Part shown: positions 31,525-46,685 of the stretch, piece after piece
Position numbering within the stretch: the first letter of the stretch is position 1
How the letters are laid out: the number at the start of each line of letters is the position of its first letter
Source: Streptomyces sp. NBC_00690
GTDB lineage: Bacteria > Actinomycetota > Actinomycetes > Streptomycetales > Streptomycetaceae
Length of the DNA: 64,000 nucleotides
Reading direction: 5' to 3'
Assembly (NCBI RefSeq): GCF_036226685.1
Contig: NZ_CP109009.1
Coordinates: 1,860,001 to 1,924,000 of the forward strand
Notes under the pieces: model-generated
The model's input: the letters and a program-made list of their open reading frames with translations, nothing else
What the model was told of the DNA's origin: nothing
Databases searched by the model: none
Program-made: the position numbers and the translations under genes

Positions 31525-32394
31525 CTAGGAGTGAGAACGGGGGCTTTCCGAAAATCGGGCACGAGTCGGGGATGAGGTGATTCCGTCCCATCGTGCAGAA
31601 GGCTGTGCGGTCCCACGCCTATGAACCGCTCCGCCGAGCTGATCGAGGAAGCTCGCGGCTCGCGTCAGATCCTCAGGGGTGTCTATCGCTACACCGTCGT
31701 CCAGGACAGGGACCATCTGTACGGCGTGGCCGTGTTCGACGAAACGCAGCATCTCTACTCCTTCGGCACGCTCCAGGGGCCCTTGCTGGAGCTGACGGAA
31801 GTGTTGGAGAGCCTCGCCTGTGAAGCCGTAGAGGCCCAGTTGGCGCAGGTACTTCGGCCGGTCGCCCCTAGGGTAGGGGATGGGCTGGCGCGAGAACATG
31901 AGGGCCTCGCTGCGGGCCGTAACGACTACCTTGACGACGTTGTGGTCCAGGACGGCGCCGACGTCGACCAGCTCGGTGTAGGCGTTCACGGCGAAGGTGC
32001 CGGGCGGAGTGAATTCCAGGGCCTCGGAGACGTCGTTGATGGCGGTCGGCGAGATGAACGGCTCGTCGCCCTGGACGTTGATGTATCCGTCGGCTGGCAG
32101 GCGTTCGGCGACCTCCGCGACGCGGTCGGTGCCGGTGAGGTGCTCCCCGGTGCGGATGCTGTCGATGCCGAGTTCGCGGCACGCTGCTTCGATGCGTTCG
32201 TCGTCCGTCGCGACGATGGCTCCGTCGAGGCGTTTGGCCTCCAGGCAGCGCTGGTGGACGTGCCAGAGCAGCGGCATGCCGCCGAGGAGGGCCAGTGGTT
32301 TGCCGGGGAAGCGGGAGGCACCCCAGCGGCAGGGTATGACGGCGATGTGCCGGCGCCGTTCGGCGTCGGTCGGTCGGGCTGTGGTGGCGGCCAC
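31525..32394 (-). CDS. 3-deoxy-manno-octulosonate cytidylyltransferase (KdsB)-like
   Basis: 289 residues; KdsB enzymes are about 250. It has the CTP-binding N-terminus VIPCRWGASRFPGKPLALL, the NVQGDEPFI metal/nucleotide motif and the LGLYGFTGEAL and GVAIDTPEDL segments of KdsB. The known reaction is CTP plus Kdo to CMP-Kdo and diphosphate. The GTG at 32394 is preceded by a perfect AGGAGG 5 bp away. The first 15 and last 35 residues are extra, Arg/Pro-rich and unlike the family. Kdo is a Gram-negative lipopolysaccharide sugar and no kdsA, kdsD or kdsC is seen here, so a related ulosonic acid or other sugar is a likelier substrate. It is last in the operon, 118 bp after the NUDIX gene. Confidence 0.85.
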   Translation of the reverse strand: MAATTARPTDAERRRHIAVIPCRWGASRFPGKPLALLGGMPLLWHVHQRCLEAKRLDGAIVATDDERIEAACRELGIDSIRTGEHLTGTDRVAEVAERLPADGYINVQGDEPFISPTAINDVSEALEFTPPGTFAVNAYTELVDVGAVLDHNVVKVVVTARSEALMFSRQPIPYPRGDRPKYLRQLGLYGFTGEALQHFRQLQQGPLERAEGVEMLRFVEHGHAVQMVPVLDDGVAIDTPEDLTRAASFLDQLGGAVHRRGTAQPSARWDGITSSPTRARFSESPRSHS

Positions 32395-32512
32395 GGCGTC
32401 CTCCTGGTGATCGGGTTCGGGGGCTTCAGGTGAGTTGGGCGAGCTTGACGCGGACGGTGGGTGAGGCGGTGGTCGCGAACGGCCGCCAGTGGTAGCCATC
32501 GACCTCTTCCTC

Positions 32513-32986
32513 CTACAGCGTCACCGCGTGATCGGCCCCGAGGTGGAAGGCCCAGCGGAAGTCCACGTGGTGGTGGGCCGGCTCGTTCTTCGACGGGTTC
32601 GCGTCGATCGCGTGCACGTCGATGTCGAGGGGGATGTCCTCGTGGTCGGCGAGGGGGACGACGGCGCTGGGCGGGATGCCGGCCTCCTCGTGCAGTTCGC
32701 GTAGAGCGGCGTCGCGCAGGAGCTGGTCGGACGGTTCGTTGTGCCCGCCGGGCGCCAGAAGCTTCCCGGACGCCTTGTGCAGGATGTGGAGCACGTGTCG
32801 TTCACCGTTGATGAGGATGGCGCTGCAGGTCACGTGGGCGGGGAAGGTCTTGCGGCTGGTGGGATCGTCCGCGCCGACGAGGGCTGCGAACAGCATCGTC
32901 AGGGAGCCGCGCTCGTCCGGGTGGCGGGCGATGTACGCCTCGGTGACGGCGCGGATGTGGTTCGTGGAGGGAGGCAACGAGGTCAC
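32513..32986 (-). CDS. NUDIX hydrolase (island operon)
   Basis: 157 residues from GTG 32986, which overlaps the stop of the SAH-hydrolase-like gene (GTGA). The Nudix helix reads LLRDAALRELHEEAGI, with the REUxEExGU metal-binding core intact; the upstream Glu of the full consensus appears to be Gln or Asp. Known family members cleave nucleoside diphosphates linked to another group. In this operon it could release a nucleotide or sugar phosphate or remove side products. The substrate cannot be read from the sequence. Confidence 0.85.
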   Translation of the reverse strand: MTSLPPSTNHIRAVTEAYIARHPDERGSLTMLFAALVGADDPTSRKTFPAHVTCSAILINGERHVLHILHKASGKLLAPGGHNEPSDQLLRDAALRELHEEAGIPPSAVVPLADHEDIPLDIDVHAIDANPSKNEPAHHHVDFRWAFHLGADHAVTL

Positions 32987-34104
32987 CTTTCGAAGTGGCG
33001 GAGCCAGATTCTGGCGATGGCGTCGCGGTCGGCCGCCGGCATCTCGTGCAGTCCGGGCTGGAATTGCGCGTGGCTGAGTGCGGCGGTGGCGGCGAGTATC
33101 TCGGCCTGGACGAGGTGGATGTAGGTGCCGACGGCGGCGCCGTGCACGAAGTTGACGGCACCGCCGTCGGCGAGAATGTAGAAGTAGTGGCCGGTGACCT
33201 CGTACCGGGTCAACTGGGGTCCGACGGAATGGCGTTCGTAGAGGTCGTCGAGGCTGCCGAGTTCGAGTTCGTCCTCGGAGGAGGTCACCGATCCGAGGTA
33301 CGCGCCGTTGCGCAGGGCGGCGAAATCCTCGTGCCGGAGGGCTAGGTTGCCGGTGGCGCACAGCACGAGTTCCGCGTCGTGGATGGCCTCGGTGGTGGAC
33401 GCGCTGGTGCGGAAGCCAAGGGCGTGCGCCTGTACCCGCTTGACAGCGTCGTTGTCGTACACGGTGACGCGCAGGTCCTGGGCGCGCAGGGTCTGCGCAA
33501 TTGAGCGACCGATCTTGCCGAAGCCGATGACGCAGGCGCTGCGGCTCGTGAGGATGTCCCCGCGGGCGCGGACGAGGGCGTCGGTGGAGAACACGATGGA
33601 CCGACCGACGAGGTGGTCCTCGCAGTCCTTGAGCGGTGAGCGGGCCACGGACACGACCGGGCACGGCAGCGAGCCGAGAGCCGCGTACCGCTGGTGTCCG
33701 TTCTCGGTGTCCTCGACCACGCCGAGGATGCGGCCGGAGAACTTGTTCACGAGGGTGTCGAGGCTGGCCGCGAAGTACCCGCCGATGTCGGCCAGGACGA
33801 CGTCCTGGCCGCCGGCCGTGTCCTCCAGGTAGTGCAGGGCCTGGGTCTCGTCGGTGAACCGCTCCCGGCTCAGGTCGTGGACCGGCAGGGTGCGGCGGAC
33901 GGTGTCGAGGGTTGGCTGGTGGATCGACCGGGGCTTGGGGAGGACGGCGCCGATCGTGGACACCGCGGCCATGGCGCGCAAGAACGCGGGGCGTTCCGGG
34001 AGCAGGTGGGTGATGACCAGCGTTGTGATCGGCCGCCCGGCGGGGAACTGCGCGGTGATCCTCCGGAAGAAGGCGTCCAGCCGTGCTCGCTCGGGGGTTT
34101 CCAT
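32983..34104 (-). CDS. S-adenosylhomocysteine-hydrolase-like NAD-binding protein
   Basis: 373 residues, shorter than genuine SahH (about 430-480). The central Rossmann domain is clear (SACVIGFGKIGRSIAQTLR) and the order of segments follows SahH: DIGGYFA near residue 130, ATGN after the NAD fold, and an SahH-like C-terminus ending near LHEMPAADRDAIARIWL. The usual SahH substrate residues in the N-terminal domain are hard to find. It may use bound NAD to oxidise and reduce a nucleoside or sugar hydroxyl transiently, or serve the operon's methyltransferases. It starts at ATG 34104 after GAGAGGAG. Confidence 0.7.
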   Translation of the reverse strand: METPERARLDAFFRRITAQFPAGRPITTLVITHLLPERPAFLRAMAAVSTIGAVLPKPRSIHQPTLDTVRRTLPVHDLSRERFTDETQALHYLEDTAGGQDVVLADIGGYFAASLDTLVNKFSGRILGVVEDTENGHQRYAALGSLPCPVVSVARSPLKDCEDHLVGRSIVFSTDALVRARGDILTSRSACVIGFGKIGRSIAQTLRAQDLRVTVYDNDAVKRVQAHALGFRTSASTTEAIHDAELVLCATGNLALRHEDFAALRNGAYLGSVTSSEDELELGSLDDLYERHSVGPQLTRYEVTGHYFYILADGGAVNFVHGAAVGTYIHLVQAEILAATAALSHAQFQPGLHEMPAADRDAIARIWLRHFER

Positions 34105-34135
34105 GGGCACTCCTCTCGGGTTCCGAGGCGTAGGG

Positions 34136-35134
34136 CTACGCAGCCCGGCTGTAGTCCGGCACCGGGGCGGCCAGAGTCTGCATGTGGGCACGCAGCCCGC
34201 TGTGGAGGTCGACGCGCGGCTGCCAGCCGAGGACCTCTCCCGCACGGCTGGGATTGGCACGCGTGACGAGAACGTCCCCGTTGCGCACGTGGTCCTGGTG
34301 GAGTTGGATCTCGCGGCCGGTGAGGCTGTTGGCGATGTTGACCACGTCCAGCAGCGATGCGTTCGAGCCGCCGCCGACGTTGATGGGGCCGTGAGCGTTC
34401 GGGACGACGCCGGCTGCGATCGTAGCGGCGACCGCGTCGTCGATGTAGGTGAAGTCGCGGCGTTGGTGGCCGTCTCCGTACAGGCGCAGGGGCTGTCCGG
34501 TCAGGGCGGCGTACAGGGCGCGGTGGGTGAACATGTCGGCGCGCTGCCGGGGGCCGTAGACGGTGAAGTACCGCAGGGCGACCACGCTGGGGCCGACGGG
34601 ACGCTCGGCGTAGGCGAGACAGAGCTGCTCCTCGGCCAGCTTGGTCACGGCGTACGGGGAGGCGGGGTTGGGGCGGTCGGTCTCGCGACTCGCGTCGCCG
34701 TCGGTAGGGCCGTAGACGCTGGAGGAGGAGGCGACGACCAGCCGGGATACGCCGATCCGGGTGGAGGCTTCGAGGACGCGGTGGGTGGCCAGCACGTTGG
34801 ACGCGAGGTAGTCCCCGAACTGCGGTCCCCAGGAGGGCCGTACGCCGGGGATGCCGGCGAGGTGGAAGACGGTGTCGGCGTCGATCAGGAGCGGGTCGAT
34901 GGCGCAGTGAAGGAGGTCGGCCGTGACGTGGTGGTATCCCTGGCGTCCTCGCAGCGCGGCGAGGTTGGCGGCGGCCGTCGGGTCGGTGGACGGGTCTCGG
35001 CGGTCCACGCCGATCACGGTGGTGCCGGCCTGGACGAGGGAGTGGGCGAGGTGGGAGCCGATGAATCCGGCGGAGCCGGTCACCACGGCCCGTCGGAGGG
35101 AAGCGTTGGTCGGGGGCTGCTCGTGCTGTGGCAC
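34136..35134 (-). CDS. NAD-dependent sugar epimerase/dehydratase (extended SDR)
   Basis: 332 residues. N-terminal NAD motif VVTGSAGFIGSHL, catalytic SPYAVTK (YxxxK) with the upstream serine in VVASSSSVYG, and the nucleotide-sugar region RYFTVYGPRQR are all intact. This is the UDP-glucose/UDP-glucuronate 4-epimerase branch. I set the start at GTG 35134, with GGAG 7 bp upstream; the longer frame overlaps the kinase gene. In context it would epimerise or dehydrate a nucleotide-linked sugar used by the cluster's glycosyltransferases. Confidence 0.85.
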   Translation of the reverse strand: MPQHEQPPTNASLRRAVVTGSAGFIGSHLAHSLVQAGTTVIGVDRRDPSTDPTAAANLAALRGRQGYHHVTADLLHCAIDPLLIDADTVFHLAGIPGVRPSWGPQFGDYLASNVLATHRVLEASTRIGVSRLVVASSSSVYGPTDGDASRETDRPNPASPYAVTKLAEEQLCLAYAERPVGPSVVALRYFTVYGPRQRADMFTHRALYAALTGQPLRLYGDGHQRRDFTYIDDAVAATIAAGVVPNAHGPINVGGGSNASLLDVVNIANSLTGREIQLHQDHVRNGDVLVTRANPSRAGEVLGWQPRVDLHSGLRAHMQTLAAPVPDYSRAA

Positions 35135-35169
35135 GGGGATCTCCAGAGGGGTGTCGTCGAAGGGGTAGG

Positions 35170-36006
35170 TCAGGTGATCCGGGACAGGACGGTTCTGCCG
35201 TGCGCGCTGAGGGCGGCGTCGTTCTCTTGGTGGCCCTTGACCAGGGCTGTGGCCGCCTCGATGGCGCCGAAGGACTCCAGGAGGCGTCGTTCGGTGTCGT
35301 TGGGCGAACGCCCGTAGCCGTCGAAGAAGGCGGTGCGGAGGTGGGGTGCGGCCTGCCAGCGTCGGAATTCGAGGCGGGCGAAGTCGCGGACCCGGGCGTC
35401 GCGTCGCATGTGCTCGAAGTCGTAGATACCGAAGGTGTCGCCGAGCAGCCAGTTGCGCGGCTGGTAGTCGAGGTGGCAGATCGCGCTGTCCAAGTGGCTG
35501 GCGCCCAGGATCACCGCGTGGTGCTTCAGCAGGTTCTCCTCGGCCGCGTCGAGCAGGTCGGCGTGGACGGCCCGGTCGATCCACCCTTGGAACCGCTCGG
35601 CGAGCGAGGCGCCGACGGCACCGTCCTGGGGCATGGCCGTGGCCCGGTGCAGCTTGCCCAGCACGTGCCCGGCCTCGTGGTGGGCAAGCTCCTCCTCGGG
35701 CGAGCCCGGAGCGAAAGTGTCCGCGCGGTCGCCTGCGAGTGCGGTGAGCAGCAGGGTGCGGGTGGCGTCATCCCGGCCGACCAACTCCGGTGCATGGCCG
35801 GTCAGATGGGTGACCCACGCCCCGTAGGCGTGGAGTTCACCGGCGTACCGGTCTCGCTCCGCGTGCTGCTTCGCGATGAACTGACGCCCGTCGCCGGCCA
35901 CCAGGCGTACGACGCGGGGCGGGAGCGCGGGGTCCGCTGCGATGTCGACTGCGCCGAGGAGGAGGTGCGCCACTTGTATCCGGGGGTCGCGCGAGGTCGC
36001 GATCAC
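35170..36006 (-). CDS. APH-fold phosphotransferase 1
   Basis: 278 residues. The catalytic loop ICHLDYQPRNWLL gives the HxDxxxxN of aminoglycoside/choline kinases, followed by metal-binding IYDFEH. Known members phosphorylate sugar or amino-alcohol hydroxyls with ATP. GTG 36006 overlaps the preceding phosphatase gene by 4 bp. With the second APH-fold protein two genes upstream, the operon has two small-molecule kinases. They could activate an intermediate or give self-resistance to a product. Confidence 0.85.
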   Translation of the reverse strand: MIATSRDPRIQVAHLLLGAVDIAADPALPPRVVRLVAGDGRQFIAKQHAERDRYAGELHAYGAWVTHLTGHAPELVGRDDATRTLLLTALAGDRADTFAPGSPEEELAHHEAGHVLGKLHRATAMPQDGAVGASLAERFQGWIDRAVHADLLDAAEENLLKHHAVILGASHLDSAICHLDYQPRNWLLGDTFGIYDFEHMRRDARVRDFARLEFRRWQAAPHLRTAFFDGYGRSPNDTERRLLESFGAIEAATALVKGHQENDAALSAHGRTVLSRIT

Positions 36007-36659
36007 GGGGTCGGCTCCGGCGTGAGGAGACTGAGGTGCTCGGTGTCGTTGTGCCGGTCGAGCATCCAGCGGGTCTGGCCCAGGCGGTTGCGGTGGTGCT
36101 GCCAGCGGGTGATGGAGGCGTGGTTGTGCGTGAATCCGGCGGGCGAGCCGATCGGGATGCCGAGCAGCAGGGTGTGTGCGGTGATCACCGTCTCCCCGTG
36201 GGCGGCGAAGACGACGCGCTTGCCGCAGTTCTCCTTGATGAGCTGGCTCAGGTTCCTGCTGGCGCGCTCCAGGAACCCGTTCCAGGTGTCGGAGCCGTTG
36301 GCCCAGGGCGTGTCGGGGTGGGCGTGCGGGCCGCCGTCGGCGGCCGTCTTCACCGCGTCCCAGGGCCGGCCGTCGGCGTCGCCGTGGACCGGTCCGTCGA
36401 GTCGGTCGTCATGGTGCACGGGGATCTGGAGCGTCTGGGCGATGATCTCGCCGGTCTGGACGAGGCGGATGCGCGGGCCGGTGTAGATGACGTCGAAGGG
36501 CTGCTTCAGGTGGTCGGTGGCCAGGCGGCGTGCGGCCTGTTCGGCTTGGGCGTACCCGAGGTTGGTCAGGCCGGTGCAGGTACGCGGGCCCCCGACGAGG
36601 CCGTCGGCGTTGCACTGGGCCTGGCCGTGCCGGACGAAGACGAGTTCGGTGATGATCAT
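36003..36659 (-). CDS. Histidine phosphatase (phosphoglycerate-mutase superfamily)
   Basis: 218 residues. The catalytic VFVRHGQAQCNADGL (RHG) and second histidine VVFAAHGETVITAH are intact, so it should be an active phosphatase or mutase. The insertion around residues 80-125 is His/Asp-rich. It starts at ATG 36659 and overlaps both neighbours by 4 bp (ATGA upstream, GTGA downstream). It sits between two APH-fold kinases, so a phosphorylation-dephosphorylation sequence on a biosynthetic intermediate is plausible. Confidence 0.88.
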   Translation of the reverse strand: MIITELVFVRHGQAQCNADGLVGGPRTCTGLTNLGYAQAEQAARRLATDHLKQPFDVIYTGPRIRLVQTGEIIAQTLQIPVHHDDRLDGPVHGDADGRPWDAVKTAADGGPHAHPDTPWANGSDTWNGFLERASRNLSQLIKENCGKRVVFAAHGETVITAHTLLLGIPIGSPAGFTHNHASITRWQHHRNRLGQTRWMLDRHNDTEHLSLLTPEPTP

Positions 36660-37417
36660 GAGGCTCCTCGGTGGGTGAAACGGAGGGGCAGGCTGTAGTG
36701 GTAGCCGTTGCGGCCGACGTACGGGGCGGTGAGCACGGCGTGCAGGGCCAGGGAGTTGTCGAGCTGGTTTCGATCCGTCGTGCCCAGCCGGGCGTCGTGT
36801 CGGAGGGCTGCCGCGTTGTACGCGAGCAGGGCATTGGTGACGGCTCGGTCGGTGAGCGGTCCGTAGGTCAGGTGAAGCGTCGCGATGAGCTTGGCGAGGT
36901 CGTAGCCCATCGGGGCGAGGGACAGGTCGTCGGTGTCGACGGCGACGATGTCCTGCGTGCTGGTGATGATGAAGTTCCGCGGATTGCTGTCCTTGTAGAA
37001 GGCGCACGGGCCCTCGGCGGTCGCCTGCAACAGGCCGAGCATCGCGTCCAGGGCCGTCTTGTTCGGCAGGTAGCCCTGCTCGTGGCGTCGCCGTAGAGAG
37101 ACCGTCCGGGGACCGAGGTAGTCGTCGAACTGCGTGCCGTCCTCGAAGTGGTGCGGGGTGTCCAGCGACGCGGAGTGCAGGTCGCTGGCCCAGGCGGCAC
37201 CGTGGGCGTGGCCGAGCAGTTCCGCCACGCGCGGGAGGTCCTCGGGACGTACGGGGCGGCCCTCGATCCGTTCGAACGTCAGGGACTGCGGTCCGGAGGT
37301 GTGGAGGGCCGGCTGCCGCAGCGGCCTGGCGTGCGCGGTGAGCCACCGGTAGTGGCGCACTGCCCCCGCCGCGCGCTCCGGTTCCGCGTAGTGCTTGGTG
37401 AACGGGGCGGGGCTCAT
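36656..37417 (-). CDS. APH-fold phosphotransferase 2
   Basis: 253 residues. The catalytic loop reads FYKDSNPRNFII, so the usual His of HxDxxxxN is Lys while Asp and Asn are kept; the metal motif is VAVDTDDLSLAPMGYDLAKL. Its N-lobe is short compared with APH enzymes, so it may be a phosphotransferase with an unusual acceptor. ATG 37417 overlaps the methyltransferase stop (ATGA) and has AAGGAGG upstream. A role in the same pathway as the first kinase is inferred from tight coupling. Confidence 0.75.
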   Translation of the reverse strand: MSPAPFTKHYAEPERAAGAVRHYRWLTAHARPLRQPALHTSGPQSLTFERIEGRPVRPEDLPRVAELLGHAHGAAWASDLHSASLDTPHHFEDGTQFDDYLGPRTVSLRRRHEQGYLPNKTALDAMLGLLQATAEGPCAFYKDSNPRNFIITSTQDIVAVDTDDLSLAPMGYDLAKLIATLHLTYGPLTDRAVTNALLAYNAAALRHDARLGTTDRNQLDNSLALHAVLTAPYVGRNGYHYSLPLRFTHRGAS

Positions 37418-38265
37418 GTCGGATCTCCTCCTTCCTTCGGCTGGGCGACGACGAAGGTGATCCGGGACCGGGTGGTCAGCGGCTGGTCGGGAAGGAACTC
37501 GTGCAGGGTCGCCGCCAGGGCACCGGGGTTGCCGTACAGGCCGGGCGCCAGGTCGTACTTGGGGTTGGTGGCCAGGTACTGCGCCGTGTGGTCGTGGCCG
37601 TCGAAGGTGAAGACGTGTTCCTCGTCCAGGACGGCGATCACGTCGAGCGAGGAGGCGGCCACGTCGGCGAGGTTGCCGCTGTGGGCTGCGGTGTAGAGGC
37701 TTTCGTGCTGGGCGGCCCGCGGATCGAGGCCAGCGGAGGCGACCAACTGGTCCATCTCCTGGTAGCTGTCGAGGCCCTTGGTGACGAGCACGGCCACACC
37801 ACCGGGGGCGAGGACCCTGGCGATCTGCCCGACGACGTCCTCGGGGTGCAGCGAGTGGTAGAGGCAGAACGCCGCGACGACGACATCGCTCGACCCGTCG
37901 GGCAGAGGGAGGTCGTGGAAGTCGCCTTCGACGAACTCCACCGTGCTGTCGGGCAGGTTCTTGGCGCGCTCGCGGGCCTGGGCGAGTAGGGAGGGGGCGG
38001 CGTCCAGGCCCACGACGCGCTTGGGCCGGAGCTGCTCGGCGATGACGAGGCTGCTCGTGCCGCGACCGCAGCCGATGTCGAGCACCACGCCGAGCCGGTC
38101 CGGCCGGGCGTGGTGGGTCTGTACCAGGCTGACGATCGTCTCGGGCACCGGGTGTCCGGCGGTCTTGGCGCGCATCAGGGCACTGGTCCGCCCGGCCAGC
38201 CGCGAGGCGTGTCCGTACAGCTCCGACTGCCGGGCGGGGTCCAGGAACGGGTTGGGCTCGTTCAT
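37414..38265 (-). CDS. Class I SAM-dependent methyltransferase
   Basis: 283 residues. SAM-binding motif I GVVLDIGCGRGTSSLVIAEQ, acidic motif II region VVGLDAAPSLLAQARERA and motif IV LPDGSSDVVVAAFCLYHSLH are complete, as in Methyltransf_11/25 small-molecule enzymes. The C-terminal 100 residues are variable and probably bind the substrate. It starts at ATG 38265, 31 bp after the P-loop kinase gene. Together with the frameshifted methyltransferase upstream, the operon specified two methylations. Confidence 0.88.
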   Translation of the reverse strand: MNEPNPFLDPARQSELYGHASRLAGRTSALMRAKTAGHPVPETIVSLVQTHHARPDRLGVVLDIGCGRGTSSLVIAEQLRPKRVVGLDAAPSLLAQARERAKNLPDSTVEFVEGDFHDLPLPDGSSDVVVAAFCLYHSLHPEDVVGQIARVLAPGGVAVLVTKGLDSYQEMDQLVASAGLDPRAAQHESLYTAAHSGNLADVAASSLDVIAVLDEEHVFTFDGHDHTAQYLATNPKYDLAPGLYGNPGALAATLHEFLPDQPLTTRSRITFVVAQPKEGGDPT

Positions 38266-38296
38266 GCCGCACCCCCTGACCGGGGGCACGGACCGG

Positions 38297-38806
38297 TCAG
38301 GACTGCTCGGCGGCCACCTTCCGCAGCCAGCGGCGCGTCTGGCGCCGGTTGGCCAGCAGCACCACATCGGCGCCGGAGCCGAACTCCTCGATCTTCGCCA
38401 TCACGCGGGGTCGCATCTTGCGCCGGTACGTGGCGACGTACTTGATCACGCCCCAGTGGATGCGGTTGTGGACCCCGTTGCCCTTGTGCCCGGCCCCGTG
38501 CCGGATCTGCCGGGAGAAGATCCCGTACAGCGCCGCCACGGTCGACACGTCCATCAGGACCACCGTGTCGCAGGCTTCGAGCCGTACCTGCAGCGTCGAG
38601 TTGTAGTTGCCGTCGATCACCCACCGCGGCTGCGCGACCAGCTCGCGCTGGACGTCGGTGAACTTGTCCATGGGCAGCGCGTTCCACTCGTCGTCGTAGA
38701 ACGCGGCGTCCAGGTGCGTCACCGGGGCGTCGAGGATCCTGCCCAGTTCGCGGGCCACGTGGGATTTGCCGCTGCCTCCGCAGCCGACGATGGCGGCCTT
38801 CTTCAT
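38297..38806 (-). CDS. P-loop small-molecule/nucleotide kinase-like protein
   Basis: 169 residues from ATG 38806. Walker A IVGCGGSGKSHVAREL lies at the N-terminus. The FlaR/adenylate-kinase-like pattern continues with HLDAAFYDDEWNALP and VIDGNYNSTLQVRLEACDTV, where aspartates resemble a nucleotide kinase substrate site, and a basic Arg-rich lid (YRRKMRPRV). It is related to the topology-modulation/shikimate-kinase-like group whose substrates are mostly unknown. In this operon it may phosphorylate a nucleotide or a sugar. There is a 96-bp gap to the glycosyltransferase upstream. Confidence 0.75.
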   Translation of the reverse strand: MKKAAIVGCGGSGKSHVARELGRILDAPVTHLDAAFYDDEWNALPMDKFTDVQRELVAQPRWVIDGNYNSTLQVRLEACDTVVLMDVSTVAALYGIFSRQIRHGAGHKGNGVHNRIHWGVIKYVATYRRKMRPRVMAKIEEFGSGADVVLLANRRQTRRWLRKVAAEQS

Positions 38807-38902: not shown

Positions 38903-39955
38903 TCAGGCAGCTCCCCGCTCGGTCGCGGTGGTCTGGAGGAGGCCGTGCAGGACGGACTCCAGGGTGTTGACCTGCTTGCACAGGCCGAACAGGCGCAGGC
39001 GGTCCACACATGCGGCGATCAGGGTGGCGTGCTGCTCGGTGCCGGCGATCTCCCGCAGGTAGGAGAGGCGTTCGAGCACGTCGCTGCCGGAGCGCACGAC
39101 CAGTTCCTTCGGGACGAACCGGTCGGCGAAGCGGATGTCCGCCGGGGCCAGCGGCAGGCAGCCGGCGAGCACGGCCTCGAAGATGCGCTGGGTCATCTGC
39201 CCGACGGCGGCGTACCGCTCGGGGAGCATGAGCACCGTGGCCAGGGACCGGCCGTAGACGCCGGCGGCGGCCTCGAAGGGGATCCGGCCCGCGAAGCGAA
39301 CGTGCGGCCAGCGGCCGGTCTTCGTCCACTTCCCGGCGACCAGGTGCTCGACGTGGGCGGCGGCCGGGGCGAAGAAGCGGTCGAAGGGCTCGTCGCGGTC
39401 GTACTGGTTGCCTACGTAGCCGAGCGCGAGATCCCGGGGCCGCGCCACAAGGGTGAGGGGATCGGCCTGGGCGAGGAGGTCCTCGGCGACGGGGAAGAGC
39501 AGCGAGTGTGCGCCGAGGGTCGGTGCGAGCGCGGCCTCGCAGACGCGGGTGTGGGCCGTGCGGCGCCACACGCTCTCGGCGCGCAGGGTGCGGTCCTTGT
39601 CCCAGATGACGGTGGGCGTCTGGGACCGGGCCGTGTAGTGGTTGATGAGCTGGGCCTGCCGGTGGAGGTCGCAGGTGTGCCCCTCGCTGCCGCACACGGT
39701 GGTGTTGCGGCCGGGGATGGCCCAGCGCCACTCCAGGAACAGGGCGTCGATGCCGGGCAGGCCGTCGTCGAAGGTGTACGCGCCGCCGAGGTCGTCACCG
39801 GCTTCGAGGCGGTCGCGGTCGGACTGGAGGAAGACGATCTCGTGACCGCGGGCAAGGAGGGCGTCGATGACGGGGCGGCGGTGGCTGCGGCCTCCGTCGG
39901 GGGTGTCGGTGACGCCGTTGCCGAGGAAGCCCCAGAAGCTGTATCCGATCTTCAT
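38903..39955 (-). CDS. Putative GT-B glycosyltransferase (CgeB/group-1-like)
   Basis: 350 residues. The N-terminus MKIGYSFWGFLGNGV and the C-terminal segment YGRSLATVLMLPERYAAVG then QMTQRIFEAVLAGCLPLA match the donor-binding domain of group-1 or CgeB-like glycosyltransferases, where a Glu in the FEA segment contacts the nucleotide sugar. No membrane segments or signal peptide. ATG 39955 overlaps the carbamoyltransferase stop (ATGA). It probably transfers the sugar made by the operon; donor and acceptor are unknown. Confidence 0.65.
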   Translation of the reverse strand: MKIGYSFWGFLGNGVTDTPDGGRSHRRPVIDALLARGHEIVFLQSDRDRLEAGDDLGGAYTFDDGLPGIDALFLEWRWAIPGRNTTVCGSEGHTCDLHRQAQLINHYTARSQTPTVIWDKDRTLRAESVWRRTAHTRVCEAALAPTLGAHSLLFPVAEDLLAQADPLTLVARPRDLALGYVGNQYDRDEPFDRFFAPAAAHVEHLVAGKWTKTGRWPHVRFAGRIPFEAAAGVYGRSLATVLMLPERYAAVGQMTQRIFEAVLAGCLPLAPADIRFADRFVPKELVVRSGSDVLERLSYLREIAGTEQHATLIAACVDRLRLFGLCKQVNTLESVLHGLLQTTATERGAA

Positions 39956-41670
39956 TTGGTGATCCACCGCCCTTCGAGGAGCAGGGCGTCGAGGCCGGAG
40001 TTGGCCAGGCAGTCCAGGGCCATCTCGGGTGTGCCGCAGATTGGCTTGCCCTTGACGTTGAGGGAGGTGTTGATCAGCACGGGTACGCCGGTCCGGCGGC
40101 CGAAGGCGGTCAGCACCGCGTGCATGAACGGGTTCTGCGACCGGGTGACGGTCTGCAGGCGGGCGGTGCCGTTGGCGTGCACGATGGCCGGGACCCGCTC
40201 GCGCGTCAGGTCTGTCACCCCGGAGGCCATGGACATGTACGGCGCCGTCTGGCCGAGGGTGAAGAACTCGGCGGCGCGCTCGGCCGGGACCATGGGGGCG
40301 AAGGGCCGGAACGGCTCGCGGAACTTCACGGTGGCGTTGAGCCGCTCGACGACGCCGGGCTCCAGCGGGGAGGCGAGGATCGAGCGGTTACCCAGGGCGC
40401 GCGGCCCGGCTTCGACCCCTCCCTGGAAGAGTCCAGCGATCACGCCGTGGGCGAGTTGGTCGGCGAGGAACTCGGCGGTCTCGATGCCGAGGGTCTCCTG
40501 GTGGAGGCCGGTCCAGGGGGTCAGGTCAAGGGGCTGGTCCTCGTAGGAGGGGCCGAGGTAACAGTGGCGAGCGATGCCCGTGACCGGGCGAGGCGTACGC
40601 GTATCGACGTGCACGGCGAGGGCGGCCCCGATCGCGGTTCCGGCGTCCCCCGGTGCCGGCGGGACGAACACCTCGTCGAAGATTCCGGCCTCGATGATCT
40701 TCCCGATGCTCACGCAGTTCGTGGCGACGCCGCCACCCACGCACAGGCGCCGGGAGCCGGTGAGCACACGGGCGCGGCGGGCGAGGTGGACCATCACCTG
40801 CTCGGTCCGCTCCTGGAGGGCAGCCGCCAGGTCTCGGTGGACATCGGTGAGCGGTTCGTTCGGGTGCCGCTCGGGGCAGGTCTCGGCGACGAACCGCCTG
40901 GATGTCCTCGGGTATCCCGAGGTGAGGGTGCGCATCGGGAAGTAGCCGGGGTGGATGCGGAAGCCCGTGGCCGCCGTGCGGACGGCCGTGGTGAACAGGT
41001 GGCGGAACCGGGCGGGGTCACCGAGGGCGGCCAGCGCCATGACGGTGCCCTCCTCGTCGCCCCGGCGCCAGCCCAGGTGCTCGGTGACGGCGCCGTACAC
41101 GTAGCCGAGGGAGGCCGGGTCGTTGATCGCTTCCAGGGTCTGGACGCGGGGGCGCTGAACGCCGTGACCGTGGGCGATGGTGGTGGTCTGCCGCTCGCCG
41201 AGGCTGTCGACCACGAGGACGGCGGCTTCCTCCCAGCCGGAGGCGGCGTAGGCCGTGAGCTGGTGGGCGCGGTGGTGCAGGACCGGTGTGACGCGGGCCG
41301 AGGGGAACTGGCTGCCGAGGACGCGCAGCCGTCGCCGGGTCCGCAGGGCGACCTTGGCGAACCCGTGGGCGCGGGCCAGGCTCCGGTCGCGTGTCGTTGG
41401 CGAGAGCGCCATGCGCAGGGCGGCGGGCGACTCGGCGAGGTAGCGGGCGGGCTGGAAGTTGTAGGCGACGGCGTCCACGTCGGTGGCGTTCAGCTTGGCC
41501 TGGTCGAGGAGCCAGCCCACGGCGCGAGCCGGGTAGAGCTTGGTGTGCTTCTGCTCGGAGAGGCGTTCCTCCTCGACGAAGCCGACAAGTTCGCCGTCCA
41601 CGAGAAGGGCGGCCGAGGAGTCGTGGGTGTACGAGCACAGACCGAGGATCACGGAAGGGGTGCGCTTCAT
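39952..41670 (-). CDS. O-carbamoyltransferase (TobZ/CmcH/NovN/NodU family)
   Basis: 572 residues, normal family length. The N-terminal Kae1-like domain starts ILGLCSYTHDSSAALLVDGE and has the metal-binding histidines in HHRAHQLTAYAASGW; the YrdC-like C-terminal domain includes GPRALGNRSILASP and LNVKGKPICGTPEMAL. Known members make carbamoyl-adenylate from carbamoyl phosphate and ATP, then carbamoylate a hydroxyl. The ATG at 41670 has AAGGTGA 5 bp upstream; an in-frame GTG at 41682 overlaps the thymidylate-synthase-like stop. The tight coupling to that gene suggests sequential action on one intermediate. Confidence 0.92.
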   Translation of the reverse strand: MKRTPSVILGLCSYTHDSSAALLVDGELVGFVEEERLSEQKHTKLYPARAVGWLLDQAKLNATDVDAVAYNFQPARYLAESPAALRMALSPTTRDRSLARAHGFAKVALRTRRRLRVLGSQFPSARVTPVLHHRAHQLTAYAASGWEEAAVLVVDSLGERQTTTIAHGHGVQRPRVQTLEAINDPASLGYVYGAVTEHLGWRRGDEEGTVMALAALGDPARFRHLFTTAVRTAATGFRIHPGYFPMRTLTSGYPRTSRRFVAETCPERHPNEPLTDVHRDLAAALQERTEQVMVHLARRARVLTGSRRLCVGGGVATNCVSIGKIIEAGIFDEVFVPPAPGDAGTAIGAALAVHVDTRTPRPVTGIARHCYLGPSYEDQPLDLTPWTGLHQETLGIETAEFLADQLAHGVIAGLFQGGVEAGPRALGNRSILASPLEPGVVERLNATVKFREPFRPFAPMVPAERAAEFFTLGQTAPYMSMASGVTDLTRERVPAIVHANGTARLQTVTRSQNPFMHAVLTAFGRRTGVPVLINTSLNVKGKPICGTPEMALDCLANSGLDALLLEGRWITK

Positions 41671-41678
41671 GGCGGCGG

Positions 41679-42629
41679 TCACCTTGCCCCGGCCGTCACG
41701 GCGCGCTTGGCCGAGCGACGCTCCAGCTCTCCGTACCAGGCGGTGAGGGCTTGGCCGAGGGGCCCGTCGATCGCGTCGGCCGCCCGCCACGCCTGCTCGC
41801 GCTTGCCGTCCTTCCAAAGCCGATAGCTGCGCAGCGTCTCGGCCATCGCGTCCCAGCCGGGATGGCCGGTCACGTCGCGGGCCTCGACCTGGTCGAGCAG
41901 GCCGGAGAATCCCGTCCAGGACGTTCGCAGGTCGGGCATGATCTCGCTCGCCGACAGCGAGGTCAGCGCGTCGGCCTGCTCGATGTGCTCGTCGTAGATG
42001 TGCAGCGAGCCGATGTGCAGGTGGAACTCGCCGAGTTCCACGTCGAGCCATCCGGCGACCAGCTCGTGCAGCACGGTGTAGAAGAACACGTCGTACGGCA
42101 TGCCGATCCACACGTCCTGGCCGCGCATCATGGTCGCCATGTGCAGTCGGCCGGCGCGTAGGTGGAACCGGAACCCGAGGGTGCAGGGCACGTCCCTGTG
42201 CCCTGCGGCGTCCTGGGCCGGGTCGTAGAGCTGGATCAGGGCTCGCCGGGAGTCGGGGTCGGCCTGGAGGATCTCGACGACGCGGGTCAGTTGGTCGACC
42301 TTGCCGGCCCAGTTCCGCATCCTGGGTCCGTACGCCCCCAGGAGGACGCCGTCGTCGGCGAACTGCCGCAGCCGGTTGTTGTAGTCGAAGATCCACGGGG
42401 CGTCGGATCCGGACAGGTGCCAGACCGTCTCGGCGACGGCGAAGGCCGGATTCACGATGCGGGCGGGCGGGGCGTAGAGCAAGCGGGCGCGCGGCTGGGT
42501 GAGCAGCAGGTGCACGTCGCGGACTTCGTGGGTGGCCATGCCCCGGGGGCTGATCTTCTCGCCGGTTTTAGCCAGCGTGACGGCGCCGGAGAACAACTCG
42601 GCGATGCTGTCGGCCATGAGGGATGTCAT
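41679..42629 (-). CDS. Thymidylate-synthase-superfamily protein (possible CMP/UMP C5-modifying enzyme)
   Basis: 316 residues. It has the ThyA-type active-site cysteine in DVPCTLGFRFHLR and the phosphate-binding arginine loop DSRRALIQLYDP, plus GAYGPRMRNW and the C-terminal region HLHIGSLHIYDEHIE that holds the nucleotide ribose in ThyA. It differs much from a housekeeping ThyA. Relatives in natural-product pathways (for example MilA of mildiomycin) hydroxymethylate CMP at C5 with methylenetetrahydrofolate. A hydroxymethyl product would supply a hydroxyl for the coupled carbamoyltransferase; this is inference. It starts at ATG 42629 after GAAGGAG and overlaps the glycosyltransferase stop (ATGA). 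Confidence 0.82.
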   Translation of the reverse strand: MTSLMADSIAELFSGAVTLAKTGEKISPRGMATHEVRDVHLLLTQPRARLLYAPPARIVNPAFAVAETVWHLSGSDAPWIFDYNNRLRQFADDGVLLGAYGPRMRNWAGKVDQLTRVVEILQADPDSRRALIQLYDPAQDAAGHRDVPCTLGFRFHLRAGRLHMATMMRGQDVWIGMPYDVFFYTVLHELVAGWLDVELGEFHLHIGSLHIYDEHIEQADALTSLSASEIMPDLRTSWTGFSGLLDQVEARDVTGHPGWDAMAETLRSYRLWKDGKREQAWRAADAIDGPLGQALTAWYGELERRSAKRAVTAGAR

Positions 42630-44473
42630 CGGACGGATGCTCCTTCGTCCTGGGGCGACGCAGCGGCGCCCGGGTGATGGTGGGTGTAGTCGTCGGCCCT
42701 CGGGCCGGAGGTGGAGCGGTTGGTGATGAGCCGGGCGATCCGAGCGGCGCTGTCGCCGCGCCACCGGCAGACCTCGTCGAGAGCCGCCCGCGGGATCGGC
42801 GTAGGGCCCCCGCGCACGCCGGAGAGCGCTTCGGCGACGTCACCGGTGGCCTCGCACCGGGTCGCCAGTCCGTGACCGGTCAGGCCAAGAGTGCGTTCGC
42901 CGGGCGGGCCGATTTCGAGGACCGGGATGCCGAGCAGCGCGGCTTCGATCCCGCACGTCGAGTACGCGCTCGCTACGGCGTCAGCGCCGGCGAGGCAGCC
43001 TCGTGCTCCGACCCGGGGATCGGACACTGCGACGGGCGTCCCGACGTCCCGCTTCACCAGAGCATTGAAGGCATCGGCTCCCTGTGCCGGGTGGGGAGCG
43101 ATGACGAGCCCCCAGTCCCCGTCCGCCTCGGCGAGCCCGTCCAGAAGGAGGTCCGCGTGGGACTTGAGGTGATCGGGGTTGAAGGGCTGGCAGGCCCACA
43201 CCGCGATCCGGGTCGGCGCACGTCGGCCCCCCGGAGCGAGCAGCTTCTCCAGATACCGCCGTTGCGCCTGGCGGCTCAGGCCGGTGAGGACGTCGAAGCG
43301 GGGCTGCCCAAGTACGTGCACCTCGGCCTTGGGATGGCGCGCCCACCCTCGGCCCAGAGCGAGGTCCCGCTCGCCCATGACGACGATGTCGCGGCTGTGC
43401 AGGGCCGGCCAGGCGACCGACCCCGCCGTCCACGCCCCGTGCTGGACGTGCACCGAGTTCGCCCCGTGCCGCTCGGCGGCGTGCGCGGCCAGCACGCCCA
43501 GGGGGCTGGTGTCGTTGCTCAGCAGGACGGTGTGCGGCCGGGTGGTCGACAGCATGTCGTCGAGCCAGCTCTCCGCCCGCACCACCGTCCGCCACGACGG
43601 CTGGGTGCAGCCCCCGCTAGTCTCCAAGAGCACGGACAAGAGCCTTACGAGCCGGGCGAGTTGGACGCCGTGGCCTGCCACCTGGGCTACGTGCTCGTCG
43701 TCGGGACGGTGCAGGCCCTCGGCGGTGCCGGAGAGGGTGACGAGGTCGCTCGGAGCCGAACGCAGGCCGATGCCCGTGGCCGTCGGCGCCGGGCACCGTT
43801 CCGCCGGGTCGGTGGCGAGGTCGAGCAGGAGGCTCGTCCGTCCGTCGCGCTCCAGCTCGGCGAGCACCGGCATCAGGGTGTCAGAGTGGCGGGAAGTCCA
43901 GGACAGCGCCACGACGTCTCGCTGCGGCAGATCCGACGGGAGAGGGCTCGGGTCCGTGTTCGCCGTGCTGACACGGACCCGGTTACATAACTGGGCGGAG
44001 CGGGTCGGGTTGTACGGAGCCTCTGCCCCGAGCAGGTACGCAATGCCGGACCAGGTGACGGTGTACGCGAGGTACTCCCGCGAGCTGCTCGAACGCAGTC
44101 CGACGCACCCTTCATACGGGGCAGGAGCCAGAGGCGCCGGATTCGATGCGAACGGCTTCCAGGCATTCAGGGCCAGCAGCTTGCGCAAGACCTCAGTCAC
44201 GAAGCGCCGAACGGGAACGTGCTGGACGTGGAGCCAGCTAGCGCCGCCCGGTGTTGAGGCGAGCGAGGCGCCGTAGTGTTCCAAGGCGCCCATGACGTTG
44301 CCGACGAGAACGCACAACTCCTGCCGGTGGACGGGCATGGCCTCCAGTTCCCCGGTCCGGATGTGGTCGGTCGCGACGTGGTCCAGGGCGCCGCTGCCGA
44401 CGAGAGCCCACCGGGGCTGGCTGGCGACGTCGGACCGGACCAAGCTCAAAGCGCCGGTCGCGCGGGTGCTCAC
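42626..44473 (-). CDS. Large GT-B-fold transferase, possibly cytidine-nucleotide-dependent
   Basis: 615 residues; the first 230 are unlike any family I recognise. From about residue 330 it resembles GT-B donor domains: SVHVQHGAWTAGSVAWPALH, VLGQPRFDVLTGL, then VIAPHPAQGADAF and STCGIEAALLGIPVLEIG. A QHG segment followed by an HP motif is found in CDP-glycerol, polysialic-acid and Kdo transferases, where the HP binds the cytidine nucleotide. That fits the KdsB-like gene in the same operon, but is inference. A TTA codon lies at 43988-43990. GTG 44473 overlaps the HAD stop (GTGA). Confidence 0.6.
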   Translation of the reverse strand: MSTRATGALSLVRSDVASQPRWALVGSGALDHVATDHIRTGELEAMPVHRQELCVLVGNVMGALEHYGASLASTPGGASWLHVQHVPVRRFVTEVLRKLLALNAWKPFASNPAPLAPAPYEGCVGLRSSSSREYLAYTVTWSGIAYLLGAEAPYNPTRSAQLCNRVRVSTANTDPSPLPSDLPQRDVVALSWTSRHSDTLMPVLAELERDGRTSLLLDLATDPAERCPAPTATGIGLRSAPSDLVTLSGTAEGLHRPDDEHVAQVAGHGVQLARLVRLLSVLLETSGGCTQPSWRTVVRAESWLDDMLSTTRPHTVLLSNDTSPLGVLAAHAAERHGANSVHVQHGAWTAGSVAWPALHSRDIVVMGERDLALGRGWARHPKAEVHVLGQPRFDVLTGLSRQAQRRYLEKLLAPGGRRAPTRIAVWACQPFNPDHLKSHADLLLDGLAEADGDWGLVIAPHPAQGADAFNALVKRDVGTPVAVSDPRVGARGCLAGADAVASAYSTCGIEAALLGIPVLEIGPPGERTLGLTGHGLATRCEATGDVAEALSGVRGGPTPIPRAALDEVCRWRGDSAARIARLITNRSTSGPRADDYTHHHPGAAASPQDEGASVR

Positions 44474-45180
44474 ACCAGGCTCCCCTCGATGAACGGCTCG
44501 TCGGAAAGCAGGAGTTGCAGCAGTCCCTGGGGTGCGTCGGCGATCTCGGGTACGGGCGAGGTGGGCTGCCCGTATCCCCACCCCGCATGGACGTAGGCGA
44601 CACCGGCGCGGGCCGCCGCTTCCTGGTCGACCGCCATGTCCCCCACGTACACAGCTGCGGCGGGGTCGACTCTGAGGTCGACCAGGGCCAGGAGGATCGG
44701 GTCCGGTGCCGGCTTCGTGCGACCGATGCTGCTCGGCGTGCGAACGGTGGCGAAAGGACAGCCGAGTTTGGCAAGGAGCGGCGCAGCGCGGTCCAGGGGC
44801 TTGGACGTCACGACTCCCAACCGCCAGTCCGCAGCAGCGAAGGTGTGGAGCACCTCCGCGATACCGGCGAACTGCCGGGCGAGGTGGGACGCGGCCTGGG
44901 ACGCCGCCTTGTACGTCTCATGGACGAGCTGGACGTCCCTCACTCCGAGGCGGCGCATGATGTCGTTGAACTCGCGCCCCAAGTGGCGCTGGTACAAGGC
45001 GAACGGCACGTCGAGGCCATGAGTCGCCCGGACCTCACGCCACGCCCTCTCCATGACCGGTCGCGTGTCGAGTAGGACACCGTCGAGGTCGAGGAGAAGG
45101 GCACGTGGCGGAGTATCGGAGGGGGGTCGCTTCGTCGGTACAGAACTGGCCAAAGGTGGGGGAATCGGGCGGTTCGTCAC
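44470..45180 (-). CDS. HAD-superfamily phosphatase (phosphoglycolate-phosphatase-like)
   Basis: 236 residues from GTG 45180 after GAGGAGA. Motif I ALLLDLDGVLLDTRP, motif II LGVVTSKPLDRA, motif III lysine in RTKPAPDPILLAL and motif IV VYVGDMAVDQEAA are intact; the cap is the helical C1 type, so a small phosphorylated substrate such as a sugar or nucleoside phosphate is likely. The frame stays open upstream through the frameshifted methyltransferase, so a fusion protein cannot be excluded (see that entry). Confidence 0.88.
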   Translation of the reverse strand: MTNRPIPPPLASSVPTKRPPSDTPPRALLLDLDGVLLDTRPVMERAWREVRATHGLDVPFALYQRHLGREFNDIMRRLGVRDVQLVHETYKAASQAASHLARQFAGIAEVLHTFAAADWRLGVVTSKPLDRAAPLLAKLGCPFATVRTPSSIGRTKPAPDPILLALVDLRVDPAAAVYVGDMAVDQEAAARAGVAYVHAGWGYGQPTSPVPEIADAPQGLLQLLLSDEPFIEGSLV

Positions 45181-45842
45181 GGCGAGATCTCCTCGAAGGA
45201 AGGGACGGGGTGGCGGGCGGCTGGGCGAACGTTCCGTGTCGCAATGCCCGACGACGCTCGCGGACAGGAACAGAGCGGTGTGTCGGCCGAGCCAGCAGCG
45301 CTCCTGCTCGGCCCACCCGTTCTGGAGGGCCTGTACCTGTCCCTCGGTGAAGCCGCGTTGCCATGGCTTCTTGTCCGGCTCGACTCCACGCTCGGACCAG
45401 ACGCGGACGAGGACGTACAGCTGCCCACCAGGCCGCAGCCAACGTCGTGCGTCGACCATGAAGCGCTGGTGGTCGATGAACGGCAGGACGTTGCGGCAGG
45501 CAATGAGATCGAGCGACGCAGGCTGCAGCCTGGGCGGGATGGCATGAGCATCGAAGTCGTGAACCCCGCAGTGCAGCCGTCTTCCGACGCCTTGTCTTTG
45601 CGCGGTCTGGATCGCGGCCGACGAGAAGTCCAAGCCCAGCACGTCGTAGCCCAGCGGGAAAGCTGCCTGCTGAAGCTGCCGATGCCACACCCGACGTCGA
45701 GCACGGAGGCCCCGGCGGACGGGGCGATGTGCCGAAGGAAACGGTTGGCCTCGGCGTCGGTTACGAGGCGGTCTATAGCCCGGCCCTCGCGGTACCAGGC
45801 ATCCCACTTAGTGGGGCTGAGGCGGTCTTTGATCGCGCTCAT
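45177..45842 (-). pseudogene. Class I SAM methyltransferase with a frameshift
   Basis: The ATG frame from 45842 encodes a normal N-terminus (TKWDAWYREGRAIDRLVT, motif I SVLDVGCGIGSFSRQL). Near 45650 the family sequence moves to the next frame: PLGYDVLGLDFSSAAIQTA, then LDLIACRNVLPFIDH and LRPGGQLYVLVRVW. A loss of one C in a CGC-CTG context explains the shift. The downstream frame has no stop before the HAD domain, while the original frame ends in TGA overlapping the HAD GTG. So this is a broken gene, a sequencing error, or a methyltransferase-HAD fusion disrupted by one base. Confidence 0.75.
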
Positions 45843-45946: not shown

Positions 45947-45959
45947 AACGATCCTCCGA

Positions 45960-46058
45960 TCAGGCGGATTGGTAGACGGTGACGAGCACTGCGAACACGG
46001 TGACGACGAGGAGGATCTGAGTGCCGACCTGTCTCCAGCCCCAGCCCTTGGCATCCAT
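45960..46058 (-). CDS. Small single-pass membrane peptide, 32 residues
   Basis: From ATG 46058 the frame encodes MDAKGWGWRQVGTQ, then one hydrophobic helix (ILLVVTVFAVLVTV) and a short tail, ending 18 bp from the next Shine-Dalgarno. It lies between the unknown 202-residue gene and the small coupled ORF, with no overlap. Its Shine-Dalgarno is weak. The amphipathic start and single helix resemble small membrane anchors or toxin-like peptides, but nothing else supports a function. Confidence 0.45.
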   Translation of the reverse strand: MDAKGWGWRQVGTQILLVVTVFAVLVTVYQSA

Positions 46059-46076
46059 CGACCGCCACAGTCGCCT

Positions 46077-46685
46077 TCAAGTCGCACCGGACGGCTCCTC
46101 GGGGATCACGAGGTGAATGAACGCTTGACACCGCTCACCCAGCCCCTCGATCAGGGTGCGATACTCGTCGTCATCGGAGCTGATGTTGTGCCGGTCCAGG
46201 ACGATCACGCGATCCGCGAAGCCGCCTTGGATCAGTCGCTCGGCCTCCCCCCAGCAAGGGCGCTTCCAGGGCGGCGTGTAGACGCCACAGCCGGCACCCG
46301 AGCCGGGGAGGTACGTCGTGGTAACGGGAACGGCTACGTCGTAAAACCTCGTTCCCATTGCGTAGCCATGCTGCTCGGCCTCGGTTTGGAAGGTGTTCCA
46401 GTCCTCGTCCGGGCTGGCACCCCCGCTCATCTCCAAGCTGTCCGCCAGCACCCGAAGACAGCGATCACCAGAGCGGCGGTCGCGCCTTTCGGTCGCCTCG
46501 CGGTGGAACTGCCGACGGAGCCGGCTGAGCTGGCCGCTGCGCGACAGACGCTCCAGCGGGGTGGAGTTGCGGTGCCACTCCTGAGGTCGAGCGGTCTCGG
46601 TGTCCGTCCCGTCCCGGGATCCCATCAGGCTGATCCGGGGACTGGAGACGGCGATCATGTCGTCCAGGCTTCTACTTGTCTTCAT
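46077..46685 (-). CDS. Protein of unknown function, first gene of the island operon
   Basis: 202 residues from ATG 46685 with GGGGAAGG 5 bp upstream. The first 75 residues are Arg/Ser-rich. The second half looks globular (WNTFQTEAEQHGYAMGTRF, YLPGSGAGCGVYTPPW, then RVIVLDRHNISSDDDEYR and a final FIHLVIPEEP strand). No family is recognised. The position as first gene, divergent from the XRE-TPR regulator with 286 bp between starts, makes it the reporter of the operon promoter. Confidence 0.65.
   Translation of the reverse strand: MKTSRSLDDMIAVSSPRISLMGSRDGTDTETARPQEWHRNSTPLERLSRSGQLSRLRRQFHREATERRDRRSGDRCLRVLADSLEMSGGASPDEDWNTFQTEAEQHGYAMGTRFYDVAVPVTTTYLPGSGAGCGVYTPPWKRPCWGEAERLIQGGFADRVIVLDRHNISSDDDEYRTLIEGLGERCQAFIHLVIPEEPSGAT

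Follow-up and report, generated by a model that had tools for sequence, protein, structure and literature searches.

What does a compact operon centred on pyrimidine-nucleotide chemistry make in a Streptomyces chromosome? We examined a window of 64,000 nucleotides from Streptomyces sp. NBC_00690 (contig NZ_CP109009.1, positions 1,860,001 to 1,924,000; the source genome is 9.17 Mb in two contigs). All coordinates below are those of the window. A first-pass annotation had described here a minus-strand operon, running from about 46685 to 31525, of about 18 genes perhaps making a carbamoylated, methylated, glycosylated nucleoside or a CMP-activated sugar conjugate. Codon-bias gene calling, which supplied our gene models, and Pfam and NCBIfam scans, which supplied the families, establish that the operon is real and lies at these coordinates; its gene count is lower, with 15 intact genes, one frameshifted methyltransferase and one or two tiny open reading frames (ORFs), all on the minus strand. 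The nine 4-bp overlaps reported between its genes are all present, seven in the gene calls and two read by eye (GTGA between the second methyltransferase, MT2, and the HAD-family gene; ATGA between a 35-codon ORF and MT2), and the calls add a 16-bp overlap between the carbamoyltransferase and the first glycosyltransferase, GT1. We favour the reading that the operon makes a glycosylated, carbamoylated and methylated 5-hydroxymethyl-(deoxy)cytidine, as nucleoside or nucleotide, and consider it rather probable.

The reading begins with the ThyA-like enzyme. The best solved relative of its family profile is MilA, the CMP 5-hydroxymethylase of mildiomycin biosynthesis (158 bits), compared with 86 bits for the best thymidylate synthase (TS). 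Its best score against TS equivalogs was 88 bits for a cut-off of 327 (NF002497), and the other seven listed also fell below their cut-offs. In an alignment of 80 rows, comprising the window and 79 loci from the genome scan described below, the catalytic Cys (C149) and Glu (E67) are present in 80 of 80 rows, and D180, which corresponds to Asn177 of the E. coli enzyme, is Asp in 79, with a gap in the last. According to the available text of two studies, an Asp at TS position 177 selects cytosine (PMC5175136, PMC8670742). With Asp in place of Asn and equivalog scores below cut-off, identity as a TS was rejected. The enzyme is predicted to be a CMP or dCMP 5-hydroxymethylase, and the Asp at the Asn177 position indicates that the pyrimidine at the centre of the operon's chemistry, left general in the first-pass annotation, is probably cytosine. 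The ribose selectors of MilA, Lys133 and Ala176, are replaced: Arg stands for Lys in all 80 rows, and the Ala position holds Gly in 49, Ser in 30 and a gap in one. Gly occurs in the window and in loci L032 to L079, 47 of these 48 loci having both GT2, the second glycosyltransferase-like gene, and the HAD gene (the exception, L066, is truncated). The Ser rows fall within L080 to L111, include GT2 only in L088, L089 and L091, and carry the Arg/Ser/Asp signature of dCMP enzymes. Separately, a locus of the same genus (L030, 664-3604) encodes a hydroxymethylase with the MilA signature (Lys, Ala, Asp). The ORFs after it look, by eye, like a nucleoside diphosphate kinase and a radical-SAM protein, and the locus may be a further cytosine nucleoside cluster.

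Because the first step resembles MilA, the operon could instead encode a modified form of an already described route to a cytosine nucleoside antibiotic, of the mildiomycin or bacimethrin type: free hydroxymethylcytosine would be released and then joined to a different sugar. The operon enzyme shares with MilA, as characterised in the accessible part of PMC5175136, the catalytic Cys and Glu and the cytosine-selecting Asp, but it has Arg and Gly or Ser for the ribose-selecting Lys and Ala, and no N-glycosidase-type family, the role that the accessible part of PMC4081090 gives to MilB, appears among the Pfam matches of the operon genes. We regard such a pathway as very unlikely. The xinaomycins were a further candidate product, suggested by a text match and a ThyA relative in S. 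noursei, and were rejected: in the portion of the xinaomycin paper at hand (PMC4139839), hydroxymethylcytidine occurs only in the references and a glycosyltransferase knock-out left production unchanged, so nothing there links these compounds to the operon.

We asked which genes accompany the ThyA-like gene elsewhere. A ThyA profile built from 20 proteins was run against genomes of 84,980 species, and the best 80 of 119 loci, all actinobacterial, were compared with 10-kb flanks. Gene presence was scored as a tblastn match to the window's proteins, and the resulting counts are lower bounds, limited by contig ends and by the flank, above all for the KdsB-like gene near the flank's edge. The genes do travel together, as proposed: the carbamoyltransferase was found in 79 loci and GT1 in 78, with most of the kinases, the short-chain dehydrogenase/reductase (SDR) and the first methyltransferase, MT1, close behind (Table 1). 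Gene order, compared for part of the 80 loci, is kept across Streptomyces, Nonomuraea, Nocardia, Micromonospora, Prauserella and others, and is constant save for lost or inserted genes. The SDR gene follows APH1 in the Streptomyces and Nonomuraea types and precedes the ThyA-like gene in the Nocardia, Micromonospora and similar types; in L053, L073 and L090 the operon ends after the carbamoyltransferase; and L092, L108 and L111 carry an extra gene (family f59) between GT1 and the P-loop kinase, of which the one member tested, that of L092 (13684-14526), is a radical-SAM protein by Pfam. Pairwise distances for 12 operon proteins correlate with those for ThyA (r between 0.85 and 0.98, the highest value among 200 permutations being 0.42); shared species history also raises r.

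The same linkage is seen when whole genomes are counted. Among 392 Streptomyces genomes, 73 have a ThyA match at E 1e-20, and 28 of these are of the operon type, set by our own cut at >=60% identity. GT1 is likewise found in 28, and 27 genomes have both (Fisher's test, 2e-39, the genomes not being independent). A GT1 profile matched two of 396 genomes spread over the phylum, the source genome among them, and the operon is thus sparse outside the groups listed by the ThyA scan. Among the best 120 of 864 matches in one protein database search, the closest named ThyA relatives were from Streptomyces; a second search covered the best 120 of 7868 matches, from 7998 scored candidates. A plasmid form was not seen, all 202 plasmid records that match ThyA doing so at below 60% identity.

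These counts change which genes form the core. The first-pass annotation had proposed a KdsB-like, ThyA-like and carbamoyltransferase trio as the seed for neighbourhood searches; the central trio that emerges is the ThyA-like enzyme, the carbamoyltransferase and GT1. KdsB reaches 42 of the 80 loci, a lower bound. Of the 29 Streptomyces genomes with KdsB, 19 have the operon-type ThyA and 10 lack it, most of those ten being partial matches, and 9 of the 28 genomes with the operon-type ThyA have no KdsB. Nine genomes (G033, G057, G097, G116, G264, G310, G325, G376 and G377) hold partial KdsB-like matches without an operon-type ThyA, which may be vestiges of operons since lost; in G377 a GT1 fragment lies on the same contig.

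The KdsB-like protein bears on a second alternative, a surface glycan or glycolipid pathway, in which KdsB would supply a CMP-sugar, GT1 and GT2 would assemble an oligosaccharide, the carbamoyltransferase would decorate it and the ThyA-like protein would do something else. The operon does contain a KdsB-like protein, an SDR, two GT-B transferases and a NodU-like carbamoyltransferase, and GT2 shows a weak similarity to a surface-carbohydrate family (19 bits for a cut-off of 125; E 0.0006). KdsB and GT2 (51 of 80 loci) are accessory, however, while the ThyA-like protein, with its catalytic residues invariant, travels with GT1. The KdsB-like protein itself scores above the cut-off of the broader NF003952 (239 bits, cut-off 193) and has a CMP-Kdo synthetase entry (1gq9) as its closest match, but its score for the kdsB equivalog TIGR00466 is too low (136 bits, cut-off 155), and the genome has no match to kdsA or NeuB. 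A Kdo or sialic acid route was rejected on that ground, and the data do not support an ordinary CMP-activated sugar. Pfam scans of the operon also found no flippase, polymerase or ABC exporter family. Taken together, we think a glycan pathway improbable.

The carbamoyltransferase, the gene most often found beside the ThyA-like one, belongs to the NodU/TobZ family, matching both PF02543 (146.6 bits) and PF16861 (204.7 bits) over their full length. Its nearest solved relatives are decarbamoylnovobiocin carbamoyltransferase (NovN), GdmN and TobZ, which share its two-domain architecture and act on antibiotic sugars or macrocycles. A parallel in gene content comes from phages. In the text available from PMC8670742, a TS homologue with Asp177 is encoded together with a NodU-type carbamoyltransferase that yields 5-carbamoyloxymethylcytosine in vitro, accepting DNA, RNA (at lower yield) and 5hmCTP as substrates. 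The operon differs from this pair in being chromosomal, in having about 15 genes, with kinases, phosphatases, a methyltransferase and a glycosyltransferase, and in its carbamoyltransferase, which is only distantly related to the phage ones. With GT1 and a carbamoyltransferase both encoded in the operon, only one of them can cap any given hydroxyl of a molecule. Our preferred order places GT1 on the hydroxymethyl group and the carbamoyltransferase on the sugar; the reverse may hold instead.

What GT1 does is suggested less by its fold than by its neighbours. Its profile has a weak match to T4 DNA beta-glucosyltransferase (BGT) among solved structures (E 0.03), and its AlphaFold2 model (pLDDT 88.9) has a GT-B fold to which T4 BGT is the top match by Z (22.9, root-mean-square deviation 3.3, 299 residues aligned). 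BshA is tied with it at 22.1, other GT4 enzymes are close, and Foldseek ranks a different enzyme first, so the fold alone says little. When 2.9 million viral contigs were scanned with the operon GT1, two loci (L112 and L113) were found through GT1 alone, and each has a ThyA relative. A wider scan, with an 11-row GT1 alignment whose L116 and L119 rows had come through ThyA, gave 52 viral loci, of which 45 have a ThyA match with the window's protein as query and 46 with three ThyA queries. The viral loci include repeat contigs (L140 = L112, L141 = L119, L188 = L116, L143 = L118), and L143, scored as having no ThyA, has one about 17 kb away on its contig. After clustering of the viral GT1 proteins, ThyA accompanies at least one member in 29 of the 32 groups formed at 90% identity and in 13 of the 15 formed at 60%; in 26 and 10 of these, respectively, it accompanies every member. 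Control viral loci seeded by the operon SDR have ThyA in 1 of 23 (Fisher's test against the 46 of 52, 1.5e-12); this control is small, with 10 of its loci under 15 kb, and ThyA occurs in 1 of the 13 that are at least 15 kb. GT1 is thus linked to a pyrimidine hydroxymethylase gene in viruses as in Streptomyces.

The viral ThyA relatives are themselves mostly of the cytosine type. All 45 of those in GT1 loci have Asp at position 177, as do 17 of 20 viral ThyA rows with no GT1 match, so that the linkage, rather than the Asp, is the telling evidence. With the window's proteins as sole queries, an SDR relative was found in 37 of the 52 viral GT1 loci and a carbamoyltransferase relative in none; a carbamoyltransferase profile run against the viral contigs gave 37 pattern matches, none of them confirmed, and it is therefore GT1 and ThyA that carry the viral link. 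Five GT1 proteins tested (those of the window, L112, L113, L116 and L119) had no match in PHROG. In a ThyA tree, 17 operon rows form one side of a branch (100/100), 29 viral GT1-linked rows require six label changes, and several rows of the tree are long branches; it therefore does not settle which way the gene passed between phage and host. Across L113, L116, L119 and L140 to L190, then, we observe a viral GT1 family whose neighbours are cytosine-type pyrimidine hydroxymethylases and, in many cases, an SDR. Judged from this neighbourhood, GT1 is a candidate family of phage 5-hydroxymethylcytosine (hmC) glycosyltransferases. The resemblance to T4 and RB69, which in the accessible text of PMC6024577 combine a cytosine hydroxymethylase with a GT-B glycosyltransferase, extends to the operon, which differs in lying on a host chromosome, in the missing PHROG matches and in its substrate, probably a nucleotide.

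The viral link also opens a third alternative, that the operon modifies nucleic acid: hydroxymethyl-dCMP would be phosphorylated by the P-loop kinase and enter DNA (or hmC would be made in RNA), to be decorated by GT1 and the carbamoyltransferase. The clustering of viral ThyA and GT1 relatives, the glycosylation of phage hmC in DNA (described in the same portion of PMC6024577) and the dCMP-type signature in the 30 Ser rows are all in keeping with it. One locus argues the other way. In L112, whose GT1 shares 52% identity with that of the window, the paired hydroxymethylase carries Lys, Ala and Asp as MilA does, a CMP-type and not a dCMP-type signature, which suggests that this GT1 acts on a ribonucleotide-derived product; the pairing also counts in favour of hmC glycosylation by GT1. 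The two genes belong to a separate small cluster (L112, 1-17014). Among ten neighbouring ORFs scanned there, the Pfam matches were to an aldo/keto reductase, an exonuclease, an AAA and a HATPase protein, and L112, filed as viral, may be chromosomal. Within the operon, Pfam matches include no DNA polymerase, nuclease or restriction family, the nine operon proteins (of 15) that were scanned with PADLOC gave no family, and the phosphatases and methyltransferase fit a small molecule. We consider nucleic-acid modification unlikely. A defence system was likewise rejected on the PADLOC result, in which the neighbouring helix-turn-helix (HTH) regulator was a weak 'control protein' match.

Returning to the nucleoside or nucleotide product that we favour, the pathway might run as follows. 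The ThyA-like enzyme would hydroxymethylate C5 of CMP or dCMP. The SDR would tailor an NDP-sugar, which GT1 would attach to the 5-hydroxymethyl oxygen, in the manner of phage hmC glycosyltransferases. The carbamoyltransferase would then act on that sugar, as antibiotic O-carbamoyltransferases do, or on the hydroxymethyl group. MT1 would methylate. Three kinases (the P-loop kinase and the two APH-like ones) would, together with the histidine phosphatase, set the phosphorylation state, either a 5'-phosphate or a reversible self-protection. In Streptomyces-type operons, GT2 and the HAD, SAHH-like, NUDIX and KdsB-like proteins would add a further moiety. The genes may serve one product, and that product may be secreted.

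Table 1. Genes of the operon and its putative regulator, in window coordinates, with the number of the 80 loci that have a match
Gene	Position	Strand	Evidence	Loci (of 80)	Status
Small protein, function not assigned	46077-46685	-	no Pfam match	21	accessory
MT2, methyltransferase, broken	45180-45842	-	two open pieces in two frames	2	accessory
HAD-family phosphatase, GTG start	44470-45180	-	PF13419 91 bits; DLDGVLLD in translation	50	accessory
GT2, GT-B-fold transferase with extra N-terminal part	42626-44473	-		51	accessory
ThyA-like, predicted CMP/dCMP 5-hydroxymethylase	41679-42629	-	PF00303		core
NodU/TobZ-type O-carbamoyltransferase	39952-41682	-	PF02543 and PF16861, full length	79	core
GT1, GT-B, predicted 5-hydroxymethylcytosine (nucleotide) glycosyltransferase	38903-39967	-	PF13524 34 bits	78	core
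P-loop kinase, 'DNA topology modulation protein' group	38297-38806	-	NF005994 155 bits (below cut-off, 215)	73	core
MT1, SAM-dependent methyltransferase	37414-38265	-	PF08241/PF13649	71	core
APH2, phosphotransferase-like kinase	36656-37417	-	PF01636 33 bits	73	core
Histidine phosphatase, branch 1	36003-36659	-	PF00300 101 bits	62	core in most
APH1, diverged APH-like kinase	35170-36006	-	no Pfam match	61	core in most
SDR, extended NAD-dependent nucleotide-sugar epimerase/dehydratase	34136-35134	-	PF01370 172 bits; PHROG nucleotide-sugar epimerase	73	core
SAHH-like NAD-domain enzyme, probably not adenosylhomocysteinase	32983-34104	-	PF00670 62 bits	37	accessory
NUDIX hydrolase	32513-32986	-	PF00293 38 bits	32	accessory
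KdsB-like cytidylyltransferase	31525-32394	-	PF02348 138 bits	42	accessory
Divergent HTH regulator, possible operon regulator	46792-48399	+	PF13560 36 bits; start probably nearer 46970 (by eye)	7

The kinase-like proteins of the operon retain conserved motifs. The Walker A motif of the P-loop kinase (GxGGSGK) is invariant in 16 of 16 rows, KD.N.RN and D.D of APH2 in 15 of 15, and HLD..P.N and D.E of APH1, motifs of the kinase type, in 12 of 12. The SAHH-like protein keeps its NAD-binding domain; its AhcY equivalog score is 90 bits for a cut-off of 275 (NF004005), and a Ser aligns opposite the His of the GHF motif, which we take to be catalytic. The GT2 model (pLDDT 79.4) has a GT-B fold whose nearest neighbours are non-hydrolysing UDP-GlcNAc 2-epimerases, and its profile found no relative by sequence among solved structures, with one chance-level match (E 0.56). 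The two methyltransferases of the first-pass annotation fare differently: MT1 stands, while MT2 has its N-terminal part in one frame and the remainder in another. Its relatives, in L051 and L078, are intact (201 and 200 amino acids), and we cannot tell whether the frameshift is decay or an assembly error.

Upstream, the relatives of the HTH regulator all lie on the strand opposite the operon, and other HTH-type regulators occupy the same place in many other loci. Across L032 to L078, HTH-type regulators, an ATPase-like protein and small proteins (families f15 to f20) recur upstream of the HAD gene. Just past the regulator, the window encodes a RibD_C-like reductase and a cytidine/dCMP-deaminase-like protein (48429-49615), with relatives of both in L067; as only 2 and 1 of the 80 loci, respectively, have such relatives next to the operon, the two genes were rejected as members, as was a P450 (30281-31459) with weak relatives in 4.

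As the first-pass annotation had noted, the operon is of a kind that searches for standard biosynthetic markers could pass over: Pfam scans of its genes found no polyketide synthase (PKS) or nonribosomal peptide synthetase (NRPS) family. A text search of the open-access literature, which leaves out most subscription journals, turned up no paper that we recognised as describing it. We suggest, seeing nearly as much for the idea as against it, that a cytosine hydroxymethylase, GT1 and SDR shared with phages act here with a carbamoyltransferase on free nucleotides to yield an undescribed class of natural products in dozens of species, and that GT1 is an unrecognised family of phage hmC glycosyltransferases. 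If so, these operons would form a widespread family of nucleoside clusters lacking a PKS or NRPS marker, and would connect phage DNA hypermodification to secondary metabolism, with the operon offering a testable first step and enzyme partners.

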